Assembly: GCA_947039395.1 (NCBI GenBank)
Contig: CAMQYS010000016.1
Span: 1-44,414, forward strand
DNA length: 44,414 nt
Reading direction: 5' to 3'
DNA from: an uncultured Deferribacteraceae bacterium
GTDB taxonomy: Bacteria; Chrysiogenota; Deferribacteres; Deferribacterales; Mucispirillaceae
Positions 8,986 to 34,786 of the stretch are shown here, piece after piece. How positions within the stretch are numbered: position 1 is the first letter of the stretch; every line of letters starts with the position of its first letter. The notes beneath the pieces are model-generated. The model was not told the DNA's origin and did no database searches. It saw only the letters and a program-made list of their open reading frames with translations. A program made the translations under genes and the position numbers.

Positions 8986-9045
8986 TATTTTTACAATAAA
9001 ATTTATTATAATTATGTGGAGAGTGTGATGAGAGTTTTAAAGATT
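8901..9045 (+). repeat. 145-bp direct repeat, copy 1
   Basis: This block is base-for-base identical to 10104-10248 (offset 1203). It covers the last codons of ANK6, the whole gap and the first six codons of ANK7. The second copy spans the same elements between ANK7 and ANK8. It indicates a recent tandem gene duplication or gene conversion. Confidence 0.93.
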
Positions 9046-10188
9046 ATTGTATTAATGGTATTCGTGGTTATTACGGTTATAGGGTGTAAGAAGAAAAATT
9101 CAGCTGATAAAGTAGTGGTTGATAATACAAGTATCACGGTTGACAATATCACAACAGAAGATATTGCAACAGATAATATTACAGTTGATAATATCACAAC
9201 AAAAGATATAGACGATGATATTTTACCAGTGAGTAATTTTATTAAAGAGTCGGAAGATATGAATAAGGCTCTTTTAAGATATTCGTTTGATAACAATACA
9301 GAGGCTGTGAAATCGCTTATAAAAGCTGGTGCAGATATTAACGCTAAAGATAATAGAGAGAGAACAGCGATATCAAACGCTGCATTTAGAGGTAATTTTG
9401 AACTGGTTAAATATTTAGTAGATAAGGGTGCTGATGTAGCAGAGTCAGTTGATGGCGCTATTAATAACGGACATTTAGATATTGTAAAATATTTAGTTTC
9501 AAAAGGAGCAGCTATAAATTCATACGATGAGTATGGCTCAACATTATCAAAAGCAATAGATAATAATCAGCTTGAAGCTGTTAAGTATTTAATAGAAAAT
9601 GGAGCAGAGCTTGACGATGCTAATATTGACGGCACGACACCATTAATGACTGCATCAGGTAAAGGCAATTTAGAAATTGTAAAAATGTTGGTTAATAAAG
9701 GTGCAGAGATAACTGCTGGGGTTTTATATGATGCATCAACGGGGGGATATATAGATATAGTACGTTTTATAGTAGAGAGTGGAGTTGATTTAGATGTTAA
9801 ACATAATGGTAGCACGTCGCTTATATCTGCTTCTAGTTATGGACATTTAGATATTGTTAAGTATCTAGTTGATAACGGTGCTAATGTTAATCCTGAGACG
9901 AATGGGGGCGACACAGCTGTACTTTTAGCATCATATTTTGGACATTTAGATATTGTTAAGTACCTAATTGGAAAAGGTGCAGATATAAATTATCAAAACA
10001 AAGATGGTAAATCAGCGTTGATTTATGCTTCATGGAGTGGACATTTAGATATCGTTAAGTACCTAGCTGAACATGGTGCAGATATTCGTATAAAAGAGAA
10101 GAGTGGTGAAACAGCTACTCAGATTGCAAAGGATCGAGGATATATTAAGATTGTTGAATATTTGAATAGTAAGCAGAAAGCAGAGTAA
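9028..10188 (+). CDS. ANK7: ankyrin-repeat lipoprotein
   Basis: The chosen start is ATG 9028, because GGAGAG at 9018-9023 sits correctly for it; an upstream in-frame GTG at 9016 overlaps that site. The 386-residue product has leader MRVLKIIVLMVFV, lipobox VIGC (Cys20) and three Lys. A Thr/Asn/Asp linker with four N-X-S/T sequons follows, then about nine ankyrin repeats. The region 9697-9920 is about 90% identical to 11437-11660 in ANK9. The leader is shared with ANK8 and, in looser form, ANK10. It was probably produced by tandem duplication with ANK8. Confidence 0.93.
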   Translation: MRVLKIIVLMVFVVITVIGCKKKNSADKVVVDNTSITVDNITTEDIATDNITVDNITTKDIDDDILPVSNFIKESEDMNKALLRYSFDNNTEAVKSLIKAGADINAKDNRERTAISNAAFRGNFELVKYLVDKGADVAESVDGAINNGHLDIVKYLVSKGAAINSYDEYGSTLSKAIDNNQLEAVKYLIENGAELDDANIDGTTPLMTASGKGNLEIVKMLVNKGAEITAGVLYDASTGGYIDIVRFIVESGVDLDVKHNGSTSLISASSYGHLDIVKYLVDNGANVNPETNGGDTAVLLASYFGHLDIVKYLIGKGADINYQNKDGKSALIYASWSGHLDIVKYLAEHGADIRIKEKSGETATQIAKDRGYIKIVEYLNSKQKAE

Positions 10189-19899: not shown

Positions 19900-19981
19900 T
19901 AGTTGTAAGATCATGTTAAATAAGTTGTTTTCTAGATAATAGAAGTTTATAACGATATGTATTTTAAAAAGAGGGGGAGTT

Positions 19982-21448
19982 ATGTTGGTTTTAAATTGTA
20001 TTAAAAGGTATAGTATTTTCACTTTGTATGTATTTATGTTTATGGTTATAAATATATCGGAGGTTAAGGCTGATAAAAATCTTAATGATATGTATTTTGA
20101 TTCAGCAAAGAAAGGCGATTTAGTAAAGCTTAAATCGTACTTAAAGCAGGGTGTTGATGTTAATGTTAAGGACGAAATAGGCAACACAGCTTTAATATTT
20201 GCAGCAGGTTCTGGACATCTAGATATTGTTAAGTATTTAGTAGATAAAGGTGCAGATATAAATGCAATGACTCATAATGACGAAGATTATCACGATGACT
20301 CTCCCTTATTAATAGCTTCAAAAAATGGACATATAGAGATTGTACGGTTTCTGATTACATCAGGAGTAGATGTTAATCAGAAAACTAATACTCTTCAGAC
20401 AGCCTTGATGAATGTATCTACAAATACAAATTTAGAAGTAGTTAAATATCTAATTGAACATGGTGCAGATGTTAATGCAAAAAACAAGTATGGCTATACG
20501 ATATTAATGAGTTTATCAAGTATACGTCGTAACCCTAAAAATCTAGATATTATTAAATACTTAGTTGATAAAGGTGCAGATATTAATGCTGTAAGTAAAT
20601 ATGATGAAACTGTACTTTTTTATGCTTCTAAATCAGGTAATCTTGAGATTGTAAAATATCTAATAGATAATGGAGCAGACGTTAATGCGAATAAAAGTAA
20701 TGCGTTGGTTGCAGCATCAAAAAATGGACATCTTGATGTTGTACTTTATTTAGTTGAAAAAGGTATCAAGATTAAAGTAAGTGGTAGTCTATCGTTAATA
20801 TCTGCAGTTTATGGTAATCATTTAGATGTTGTAAGTTTTCTAGTTGAGCAAGGTGTTGATGTTAATTATAAGGAAAATGAAACGAGAACAGCACTTATGA
20901 TAGCATCTAATAAAGGGTATTTAGATATTGTTAGTTTTTTAGTAGATAGAGGTGCTGGTATTAATATTAAAGATGAGAGTGGGTATACGGCTTTAATAAG
21001 AGCGTCAGGTGAAGGTCATCTTGATGTTATACGTTTTCTTATTGATAATGGTGCTGATATTAATATCAAAAATAAGTTTGGCTCAACAGCGTTAAGGATA
21101 GCATTAGGTGCAAATCATTTAGATATAGCAACTTACCTTATAGATAAAGGTGCGGATTTTAATGTAAATGATGGTACCCCTTTAATAGAGGCATCACGAA
21201 TAGGTAATATTGATATCTTCAACTTTCTGATTAAAAACAAGGCAAATATTAACGCACAAGATAGTGATGGCTACACTGCATTAATATGGGCATCGTACGC
21301 TAACAGAGTAAAAATAGTGAAATTATTAGTTGAGTTAGGAGCAGATATTAATATTAAAAATAAACATGGCGACACAGCGTTAATGCGAGCAAAATCGCAA
21401 GGGAACAAAACGATCGTTAAATATTTAATACAGAACGGTGCAAGATAG
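19982..21448 (+). CDS. ANK15: secreted ankyrin-repeat protein
   Basis: The 488-residue product is preceded by GAGGGGGAG at 19971-19979, a very G-rich ribosome site. The signal peptide ends in SEVKA before DKNL. About 13 ankyrin repeats follow. Some lack the hairpin (SNALVAAS, GSLSLISAV, NDGTPLIEAS), alternating long and short forms. It is the last gene before the peptidase/dehydrogenase island. A weak hairpin follows at 21451-21479. Confidence 0.93.
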   Translation: MLVLNCIKRYSIFTLYVFMFMVINISEVKADKNLNDMYFDSAKKGDLVKLKSYLKQGVDVNVKDEIGNTALIFAAGSGHLDIVKYLVDKGADINAMTHNDEDYHDDSPLLIASKNGHIEIVRFLITSGVDVNQKTNTLQTALMNVSTNTNLEVVKYLIEHGADVNAKNKYGYTILMSLSSIRRNPKNLDIIKYLVDKGADINAVSKYDETVLFYASKSGNLEIVKYLIDNGADVNANKSNALVAASKNGHLDVVLYLVEKGIKIKVSGSLSLISAVYGNHLDVVSFLVEQGVDVNYKENETRTALMIASNKGYLDIVSFLVDRGAGINIKDESGYTALIRASGEGHLDVIRFLIDNGADINIKNKFGSTALRIALGANHLDIATYLIDKGADFNVNDGTPLIEASRIGNIDIFNFLIKNKANINAQDSDGYTALIWASYANRVKIVKLLVELGADINIKNKHGDTALMRAKSQGNKTIVKYLIQNGAR

Positions 21449-30693: not shown

Positions 30694-31689
30694 ATGAAAA
30701 CGAGTAAATCAATAGTATCGCTATTACTACTATTAGTTATAGTAACGGTAGTAATCGGTTGTAAGAGAAAAAATGAACAAAACGCTTTAGATAAAGTGGA
30801 TACGAAAGTTGTTATTGATAATGGGACGATTGACAATGGGACAGTTGATAAAGATATAGCCTATCAAGGTATAGATAATTCATCGCTTCAAAAAGATAAA
30901 GAAAGTGCTAAAAAGTATAATATTTCATTGTTAGAGTATTCAGTACAGAAAGGCAATCTAAATGGAGTTAAAGTAGCTATTTTAGAAGGTACAGATCTTG
31001 AAGAAGGTGATCGTGCGATAGGCAATACAGCATTAATGAATGCTTCACTTTTTGGACATTTAGATATAGTCAAACATTTAGTTGAACAAGGTGCGATGAT
31101 AGATAGCAACAGTAATGATTTAGGTTTAACAGCATTAATGTGGGCTTCTCAAAACGGTAATATTGATATAGCAAACTACCTTATAAAGCAAGGAGCTGAT
31201 ATATCTAATATGACTATTGTTGAATGGGCAGGTTTAGGTTTTTTAAAAGAGGTTGAAGATAATATTAAGTTAGGTAACGATATTAATATTGGAAGTCCAT
31301 TTTATGGAGTAACTGCATTGATGACTGCATCAGACAATGGACATATAGAAGTCGTGAAGTTTTTAATAGAAAACGGTGCAGATATTAATGCTAAGATGGA
31401 TTATATTGAGACAGCATTAATGTACGCTTCAACAGCAGGACACTTAGAAGTGGTAAAATATTTAATTAAAAACGGTGCTGATATGAATGTTAGGACAGAT
31501 TCTTTTGAGTCAGCATTAATAAAGGCTATAATGTATGGACATCTAGATGTTGTAAAACATTTAGTTGAAAGTGGTGTTAATATTAATCATGATAAAGATA
31601 AGTGGGGCGGACAAAGTATTCTTTCTATTGCTACTAATTCTGAAAATACAGAAATTATAGAGTACTTAAAAAGTAGAGGTGCAAAATAA
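30694..31689 (+). CDS. ANK20: ankyrin-repeat lipoprotein
   Basis: AAGGGG just upstream decides for ATG 30694 over an in-frame ATG at 30676. The 331-residue product has lipobox VIGC (Cys23), KRK and a linker with DNGTIDNGTVD and a later NSS (three sequons). About eight repeats follow, including a Trp-type one (IVEWAGLGFLKEV). In leader and linker it is closest to ANK6-ANK8 although 20 kb away. The last codons of YLKSRGAK provide AGAGGT, which serves as ribosome site for ANK21, whose ATG overlaps the stop. Confidence 0.93.
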   Translation: MKTSKSIVSLLLLLVIVTVVIGCKRKNEQNALDKVDTKVVIDNGTIDNGTVDKDIAYQGIDNSSLQKDKESAKKYNISLLEYSVQKGNLNGVKVAILEGTDLEEGDRAIGNTALMNASLFGHLDIVKHLVEQGAMIDSNSNDLGLTALMWASQNGNIDIANYLIKQGADISNMTIVEWAGLGFLKEVEDNIKLGNDINIGSPFYGVTALMTASDNGHIEVVKFLIENGADINAKMDYIETALMYASTAGHLEVVKYLIKNGADMNVRTDSFESALIKAIMYGHLDVVKHLVESGVNINHDKDKWGGQSILSIATNSENTEIIEYLKSRGAK

Positions 31690-32921
31690 TGATAATTATA
31701 AGAAAATTAACTTTTATAACTATTGTTTTCCTGTTTTTAAGCAGTAATATTTATGCAGAAGATACGATTTCAGATATTGATATAAAAAATGCAAAGTTGA
31801 TATCGGATTTAGTTGAAAGCGTTTTAAATAACGATTTAGAGGGTGTAAAGGAGAGTATTAAAAACGGTGCTGATGTTAATACTTATCTTGTAAAGAGTAA
31901 ATCTTTTCCTATAATTGAGGCGTCTAAGATAGGCGATATTGATATTGTAAAAGAACTTGTTGAAAACGGTGCAAATGTTAATGTAGAGGATGATAGAGAA
32001 GGAGTATCAGCATTAATGTATGCCTCTAAAAACGGACATCTTGAAGTTGTAAAATATCTAATCATGAACGGTTCTGCTATGTATGCTATTTCAAATAAGT
32101 CTACATCTTTTTCATTAGCTACAGAGAATGGACATAATGATATAGCTATGTATATAAAAGATATCTCAACCTTTATAGATAGTGCAAAAAATGGAGATTA
32201 CAATCAGGTTAAAAAGTTTATAGAGAAAGGGATACCAGTTGATGCATTAGTAGATTTTGATACAGCCTTAGCTGTTGCAAGTGAAAATGGACATATAAAA
32301 ATCGTTAAATATTTAATAGATAACGGTGCGAATGTAAATGGAGATCGTCCGTATCTAGGGATTGTCGCTCCAGCGTTAAGTATAGCATCACAGAACGGAC
32401 ATTTAAAGATTGTTAAAATTTTGATTAAAAACGGTGCAAAAGTTAATCTTGATAATACACTTGGTGGAACAGCTTTAATGAGTGCAAGCGAGAATGGGTA
32501 TGTAGAAATAGTTAAACTTTTAATAGATAACGGTGCAGATGTTAATGTACAGACAGATAGATCTTCAACAGCTTTAATCATGTCAAAAAATTATAAAGTT
32601 TCAAAAATTTTAATAGATAACGGTGCAGATATTAAAGTTTATAATGATTTAGGCTACACAGCTTTATACGGTGTTACAGATATTAAACTTGCAAAACTTC
32701 TAATTGATAAAGGAGCTGATCTGAATGCAACATTAGTAAATGATGGCTCAACTCCATTAATTGAGGCTGTTAGAAATAACAATTTCAAGATAGTTAAACT
32801 GCTTGTAGAGAGTGGTGCTGATATGAGTATTGAGGATTATGAAGAGATGACAGTGTTACAGATCGCTTGTAATTTAGAGCGTAAAGAAATATGTAATTAT
32901 TTAAAGAAACCTTTAAATTAA
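31689..32921 (+). CDS. ANK21: secreted ankyrin-repeat protein
   Basis: The 410-residue product has a signal peptide with cleavage NIYA|ED, a short linker and about 11 repeats. It starts on the A of the ANK20 stop (TAATG), so translation is probably coupled. Two repeats are shortened at the second helix (STALIMSKNYKVSKIL, LYGVTDIKLAKLL), giving a compact region around residues 290-340. The C-terminus is unusual in carrying two Cys (IACNLERKEICNYL). Confidence 0.93.
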   Translation: MIIIRKLTFITIVFLFLSSNIYAEDTISDIDIKNAKLISDLVESVLNNDLEGVKESIKNGADVNTYLVKSKSFPIIEASKIGDIDIVKELVENGANVNVEDDREGVSALMYASKNGHLEVVKYLIMNGSAMYAISNKSTSFSLATENGHNDIAMYIKDISTFIDSAKNGDYNQVKKFIEKGIPVDALVDFDTALAVASENGHIKIVKYLIDNGANVNGDRPYLGIVAPALSIASQNGHLKIVKILIKNGAKVNLDNTLGGTALMSASENGYVEIVKLLIDNGADVNVQTDRSSTALIMSKNYKVSKILIDNGADIKVYNDLGYTALYGVTDIKLAKLLIDKGADLNATLVNDGSTPLIEAVRNNNFKIVKLLVESGADMSIEDYEEMTVLQIACNLERKEICNYLKKPLN

Positions 32922-32940
32922 ATTTTAAAGAGATAAAAAA

Positions 32941-32948
32941 GGGGGGGG
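32941..32948 (+). promoter_or_regulatory. Eight-G tract forming the ANK22 ribosome site
   Basis: Six A residues followed by eight G residues lie immediately before AA and the ATG of ANK22. The G run is the only possible Shine-Dalgarno sequence. Homopolymer G runs of this length slip during replication, so the spacing to the start codon may vary between cells. Confidence 0.75.
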
Positions 32949-32950
32949 AA

Positions 32951-34786
32951 ATGAAATTTATTAAAGTTATAATGTTACTGTTACTTATCACGATAGTTGT
33001 TACAGATACAGAAGCGATCGCAATTGACACTATTACTACCTCTATAAATAATAGTGACAAAAATAAGGACACAAATTATAAAGATAAAACTGTTGATGAG
33101 TTAAATACTTTACTGTTAAAAAATATTGAGGCTGGCGATTTAGCAACTGTTCAAACTTTAGTTAAGCATGGTGCAGACGTTAATACAGAAGAGAATAGAG
33201 GACGTATAAGTAAAACAGCATTAAAAGTTGCGATAGATAATAGACATTCACAGATAATAGAGTATCTAATCGAAAACGGTGCAGATGTATATGAGTCTAT
33301 ATTAAATAATGCGATTAGTTCGGCTTGTTCGACAGATACGCTTAACTATTTAATATCAAAAGGAGCTGAGACAAAATTTTTATCTTTAACAGAGTGGGCA
33401 GCAGTCGGATCGCTTGATAAAGTAAAAGAAGAGGTAGAGGCTGGAGTTGATATTGAGTATACAGGTTCACGAGCAACAACAGCGTTAGCAGAAGCATCGT
33501 CTAACGGACATTTAGAGATCGTTAAATATTTAATTAGTAAAGGTGCGAATATAGAAACATTTAGTGAAAGTGGCACACCTTTACTGTTAGCGTCATATGA
33601 GGGACATTTAGATATAGTAAAATATCTAGTTGAAAAAGGAGCAGATAAATCTGTTAGAAATGATTACAGTGGCGAGACAGCTCTTGATAGTGCAGCAGGT
33701 AACGGACATCTTGATGTAGTAAAATACCTAATAAGTTTTAAGGTAGATAAAGAGTCAACTTTTGCAACTGTTGCAACTCAAACTTTTTGGAACGCTTCAA
33801 TAGGTGGACATATAAATGTTGTTGAGTATCTATTAGAAGAGAAAGATGTAGATATTAATATCGCAAAACCTGATACACCTGATTTTGGAGGGTTTACAGG
33901 ATTGATGTTTGCTTCATGGAGTGGACATACTGATCTTGCAAAATTTTTAGTAGATAACGGTGCAGATGTAGATATGAAAGATTCTATGGGACGCACAGCA
34001 CTTATGATCGCATCAAATAATGGATATTTAGAAATCGTTAAAATCTTAGTTGAAAAAGGTGCTGATATGAATGCTAAAGATGATGAAGGCAAAACGGCAT
34101 TAAAGCACGCAACATACCCCGGACATTTAGATATAATAAATTATCTAAATAATGCACAATCTAAAAAGATTAATAACAAATCTGTTAATAGTGATAATAA
34201 GACAGTTTTAACGATTGTTGATTGGGCAAACGCAGGAAGTTTAGATGATGTTGTAAAAGGTATTAAATCAGGCGAGGATATAGATACTCAAAACGACTCT
34301 GAATACACAGCGATATCGGTTGCATCAGAGAACGGATATTTAGAAATTGTAGAGTATTTAATAAAAGCTGGGGCTGATGTAAATATCGTCAACTATTCAA
34401 ACACAACTCCACTTATGCAAGCATCTAAAAACGGACATTTATCAACTGTTGAAAGTCTAATTAAAGCAGGTGCAGAGTTAGATATTGTTGATAGCACTTA
34501 TAAAGATACAGCGTTAATTTTAGCATCAGGCAAGGGACATACTGAGATTGTAAAAAGATTATTAAAAGCAGGCGCAAATATTGATAAGCAAGGTGCTTAT
34601 GGAGAAAAAACAGCGTTAATGCGAGCGTTAGAAAGTGGATATGTAGATACGAGTAAAGTTTTAATAGATCACGGTGCCGATGTAAATACTATTGAAAACA
34701 AGGCAGGACAGACTGCACTTTTTATGGCTAAACATTATAACTATATACCAGAGATAATAACATATATGAAGAACTCAAAAAAGTAG
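32951..34786 (+). CDS. ANK22: secreted ankyrin-repeat protein behind a poly-G ribosome site
   Basis: The 611-residue product has an N-terminal signal (MKFIKVIMLLLLITIVV, cleavage probably after TEA or AIA), an Asp/Asn/Lys-rich linker and about 16 repeats. Two are Trp-type (LTEWAAVGSLDKV and IVDWANAGSLDDV). Near residues 395-420 the repeat domain ends with a cap (IINYLNNAQSKK). It is followed by a Lys/Asn/Ser linker and a fresh start with the second Trp repeat, another apparent fusion joint. The ribosome site is an 8-G run. Confidence 0.93.
   Translation: MKFIKVIMLLLLITIVVTDTEAIAIDTITTSINNSDKNKDTNYKDKTVDELNTLLLKNIEAGDLATVQTLVKHGADVNTEENRGRISKTALKVAIDNRHSQIIEYLIENGADVYESILNNAISSACSTDTLNYLISKGAETKFLSLTEWAAVGSLDKVKEEVEAGVDIEYTGSRATTALAEASSNGHLEIVKYLISKGANIETFSESGTPLLLASYEGHLDIVKYLVEKGADKSVRNDYSGETALDSAAGNGHLDVVKYLISFKVDKESTFATVATQTFWNASIGGHINVVEYLLEEKDVDINIAKPDTPDFGGFTGLMFASWSGHTDLAKFLVDNGADVDMKDSMGRTALMIASNNGYLEIVKILVEKGADMNAKDDEGKTALKHATYPGHLDIINYLNNAQSKKINNKSVNSDNKTVLTIVDWANAGSLDDVVKGIKSGEDIDTQNDSEYTAISVASENGYLEIVEYLIKAGADVNIVNYSNTTPLMQASKNGHLSTVESLIKAGAELDIVDSTYKDTALILASGKGHTEIVKRLLKAGANIDKQGAYGEKTALMRALESGYVDTSKVLIDHGADVNTIENKAGQTALFMAKHYNYIPEIITYMKNSKK

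Follow-up and report, generated by a model that had tools for sequence, protein, structure and literature searches.

ANK22, a 611-aa protein with ankyrin repeats throughout, is encoded within a long array of ankyrin genes and is preceded by a run of eight G, which raises the question of whether the number of G in this run controls the expression of the gene. A sequence-only reading of this DNA had described the upstream order as A6, G8, AA and ATG, and this layout matches the sequence exactly (AA at 32949-32950, ATG at 32951-32953; other features in Table 1). The G8 is the sole G run of at least 7 on either strand of the window (the whole stretch of DNA analysed, 44,414 bases), which is contig C16 of a genome of 2,112,365 bases in 64 contigs. 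It lies 2 nt 5′ of the ATG and 19 nt 3′ of the stop codon of the upstream gene.

Table 1. Positions of the G tracts and genes discussed (window coordinates unless a contig or locus is named).
Feature	Position	Strand	Basis or remark
A6 run preceding the G tract	32935..32940	+	Sequence
G8 tract, ANK22 Shine-Dalgarno (SD) element	32941..32948 (C16)	+	Sequence; G frequency in 310 sampled genes peaks at this distance; anti-SD CCTCC in 16S ends of G005; G>=8 tract of the genome
ANK22, 611-aa ankyrin-repeat protein, hydrophobic N-terminus	32951..34786	+	Start kept in sister species
Ankyrin gene (410 aa) upstream of ANK22	31689..32921	+	Stops 29 nt before ANK22 ATG
G5 SD of a second ankyrin gene in the array (sister: G9)	19973..19977	+	
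Array gene of 488 aa that follows the G5/G9 SD	19982..21448	+	DNA of the ankyrin array
G9, five nt before ATG of periplasmic binding protein gene	C36		Pfam Peripla_BP_6
G9, eight nt before ATG of Sel1-repeat gene	C37		G>=8 tract of the genome
G12 within ATP-grasp gene, frame ending a few codons later	C17:20989-21000	-	In L009 (G000:C17:19000-23000)
G8 without clear gene	C61		G>=8 tract of the genome
Examples of tracts in related genomes (G004 to G013)	L063, L086 to L142 (G005); L165 to L194 (G006)		

The ribosome-binding site of ANK22

The 16S end of the window's own genome was sought and is absent from the assembly; the 16S ends of a relative (G005) read GGATCACCTCCTTTCT and contain the anti-SD CCTCC. 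When duplexes with the anti-SD were modelled, the best one in the ANK22 upstream region fell on the G run and no better candidate was found upstream of the gene. The G8 thus serves ANK22 as its SD element: it is complementary to the 3′ end of the 16S rRNA and is located less than ~15 nt ahead of the start codon. It is also a homopolymer of the kind found at contingency loci (at least ~7 bases, at a place where length could alter expression), here at the SD.

The start codon and N-terminus of ANK22 are kept in the sister species. At 33000-33045, 42 in-frame bases of the sister are absent from ANK22, and these hold the TGC of a lipobox-like N-terminus; judged by eye, the protein may have shifted from a lipoprotein to another exported form.

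Chance and base composition

The sequence-only reading had also called the run very unlikely by chance, which is too strong for the run taken alone. A G8 run on its own appeared in 6 of 100 dinucleotide shuffles of the window (mean 0.06); a G8 with an ATG at most 12 nt away appeared in none of the 100, yet SD regions are G-rich anyway. We scored the 25 nt before the starts of 310 genes, drawn from 401,130 bases of the window's genome, and found a G frequency of 0.48 at the SD peak. These upstream regions held 35 G runs of at least 4, eight of at least 5, four of at least 6, three of at least 7 and three of at least 8, the counts of long runs being biased upward by the inclusion of contigs picked for bearing tracts. 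A model with independent positions expects 0.27 runs of at least 8 and 0.06 of at least 9 per 310 genes, and the long SD run count alone is a mild excess over it. Across the 15 genomes of family f1, 74 G runs of at least 7 were followed after 2 to 9 nt by an ATG; the reversed pattern gave 43, so that the excess is again mild. The G8 run is unusual, not extreme. As for chance alone as an explanation, which we did not retain, the shuffles and the composition model were decisive in neither direction.

A possible explanation, which we place somewhat below an even chance, is that ANK22 simply has an ordinary strong SD, the G8 being the tail of common G-rich sites, brought to fixation by drift or selected for strong translation, and its length having no regulatory use. 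The expectation of the composition model, which corresponds to ~1 or 2 runs of at least 8 per genome, is in keeping with this, as are a G7 on contig C2, located 7 nt ahead of an in-frame ATG of a 421-aa ORF, and the lack of conservation of the long run at ANK22 (see below). Against it, SD G-runs of at least 5 differ between the sister species where they were compared, while G5 runs elsewhere are the same.

G runs at ribosome-binding sites in two sister species

The sister species is 94% identical to that of the window, and the comparison uses one genome per species. At the place of the ANK22 SD it has GGGGAAAG where the window has GGGGGGGG (the sister site in full is AAAAAGGGGAAAGAAATG), that is, only a G4 followed by AAAG. 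The long G run at ANK22 is therefore young and not conserved. The length is preserved, with no plain indel and no clean change of G number, which counts against fast change of G length at this site. On one reading the two sites would be separated by three substitutions; on the other, one copy of a GAAA duplication may have been lost and four G gained.

There are five G tracts of at least 8 in the window's whole genome, and three of these are SD elements, since the ANK22 G8 and the two G9 tracts on C36 and C37 precede ATGs. Judged by eye from their N-termini, the proteins behind the SD tracts appear to be exported. In three more SD G-runs of the genus, the species again differ by four G, which favours fast-changing SD G-runs. 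The array gene with its ATG at 19982 has the SD GAGGGGGAGTTATG here and GAGGGGGGGGGAGTTATG in the sister, with ~230 identical bases on each flank, and the Sel1 gene, with G9 here, has G5 in the sister orthologue and in the neighbouring paralogue of each genome; both are clean 4-G length changes (G5 vs. G9). The binding-protein gene has a G9 SD here, compared with GGGGGAATT in the sister (G001) and in G002. All four differences, including that at ANK22, amount to four G. Three G5 runs that are not part of an SD served as controls and are the same in both species, and the remaining single-letter indels are all of one base (37,147 aligned positions, 96.0% identical).

Elsewhere in the window, a G6 within an ORF (9741-9746) corresponds to TAGGGG in the sister, another G run grown by substitution. 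Two ORFs of the ankyrin array with GTG starts, at 9016 and 10219, have identical 25-nt upstream sequences that lack an SD, pointing to a recent duplication or to a misplaced start. A search of genome contigs gave two relatives, one just 30% identical.

The genomes compared are draft, metagenome-type assemblies, and we considered whether reads or assembler might have extended a G4 over the next bases at ANK22, the true sequence being GGGGAAAG as in the sister. Length-preserving replacement by G is seen at ANK22, at the binding-protein gene (AATT) and beside the G4 at 9741 (TA), as such an error would predict. The G12 of the ATP-grasp gene corresponds to a G16 at the same place in the sister, whose assembly is visibly scrambled after it, and the consensus at long G runs can therefore err; among the G tracts of at least 7 in the sister, a G30 and a G13 close to contig ends were left out as probable assembly artefacts. 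However, the sequence resumes perfectly past the G8, in two of the other cases the gap is a clean one of four G between intact flanks, and runs of G4 and G5 are short for errors of this kind. A consensus error at ANK22 is very unlikely. Masking of the SD by RNA folding was rejected, since the predicted folds of both species leave the G run unpaired.

Poly-G tracts in the wider lineage

Among the 39 genomes of the taxonomic order that were searched, G tracts of at least 8 number 1 to 73 per genome. Genomes of the window's genus carry 1 to 5, a much lower number than in most genomes of related genera, which weighs against fast-changing SD G-runs; the other genera of the family have 2 to 73. Genus g3 of the family is probably Mucispirillum. 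G004 holds 73 tracts; those classified here are from two other genomes, G005 and G006. The 49 tracts of G005, a single contig, peak at nine (six of length 8, 33 of 9, eight of 10 and two of 11), as do 30 of the 37 tracts of G006 (three of length 8, 19 of 9, seven of 10 and one of 11). Poly-C lies between TTGACA-like and TATAAT-like boxes, with spacers of 14 to 17, in 8 of the 49 tracts of G005 and 4 of the 30 of G006. In G005, 22 of the 49 tracts have at least 40 codons open before and at least 60 after, and of these 17 are in frame and five broken; for the coding tracts of G006, five of 11 are in frame and six broken. The tract-bearing genes scanned in G005 include those for glycosyltransferases, an MBOAT acyltransferase, a sulfatase-family protein, a histidine kinase and an ATP-grasp protein.

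Surface-type coding frames and promoter spacers are the usual make-up of phase-variable loci. Given the tracts of related genera, which in the two genomes classified peak at G9 and occur in coding frames and promoter spacers, poly-G phase variation is plausible in the lineage. The other genera of the family would thus appear to hold a poly-G phase-variation repertoire, apparently unreported: our literature search returned no paper on poly-G phase variation in Mucispirillum or its relatives, and the available main text of the Mucispirillum genome paper, which notes 10 genes with ankyrin domains, contains neither "phase" nor "homopolymer" (PMC5285517).

Graded control or switching

In the duplex model, the energy at ANK22 goes from -8.4 kcal/mol at G4, a value equal to that of the sister's site, to -12.1 at G8, -13.7 at G9 and ~-14.8 at G10 or more, so that SD pairing climbs gradually with G number and then plateaus. 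Because a G4 remains a usable SD, as in the sister, and pairing rises gradually before levelling off, on/off control of ANK22 is unsupported. What stands of the earlier phase-variation reading is that the run is the SD, that SD G-runs differ between sister species at near-identical flanks and that poly-G tracts are numerous in other genera of the family, at positions like those of phase-variable loci. We favour graded tuning of ANK22 translation over on/off switching.

We give an even chance to the reading that the ANK22 G8 is one of a few SD G-runs in the genus with fast length change, acting as a gradual rheostat. Replication slippage and run-adjacent substitutions would alter the length of the SD G-run; more G would strengthen anti-SD pairing and add registers relative to the ATG, and for this reason G number could exert graded control of translation, setting the output of exported proteins in the manner of a rheostat, not of a switch. 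Slippage usually moves by one, and the fact that every difference here is of four G speaks against this reading. We consider it unlikely that ankyrin and other exported proteins of this Deferribacterota lineage are controlled by a translation rheostat that works in four-G steps (G4 to G8, G5 to G9), shifting from weaker to stronger ribosome sites and back by a process other than single-base slippage. The reading of a gradual rheostat is only partly supported, because draft assemblies can err at long G runs and the comparison is between species only.

Related arrangements are known, as described in the available portions of the papers cited. In Treponema pallidum, poly-G tracts of 7 to 11, mostly nine, precede the tpr genes and tp0126, which are surface-protein genes, and their length alters expression (PMC7864442). 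The likeness to ANK22 is a poly-G ahead of a gene; however, the Treponema tract acts on transcription, in the promoter, and varies in vivo, whereas that of ANK22 is an SD, compared here between species. One extra G in a 5′UTR tract of Mycobacterium tuberculosis espR leads to more protein (PMC11898584). This tract is likewise untranslated and causes no frame change, but it is located 144 bp upstream, with a proposed effect through RNA folding, while the ANK22 tract is itself the SD. In Campylobacter jejuni, poly-G/C contingency loci resemble ANK22 in having poly-G near nine, and the authors expect quantitative effects for repeats in Shine-Dalgarno contexts; the loci studied there are coding frameshift switches, with three intergenic tracts excluded, unlike the SD tract of ANK22 (PMC13317227). 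Word matching in the available text of three other papers (PMC1891110, PMC1501019 and PMC11868660) returned nothing on SD tracts.

SD G-runs differ between the sister species, so tuning of protein amount is possible, and such runs may tune the amount of the proteins behind them. In gut bacteria, ankyrin proteins are candidate factors of interaction with the host; should the number of G in their ribosome sites vary, the dose of ankyrin protein could differ from cell to cell.
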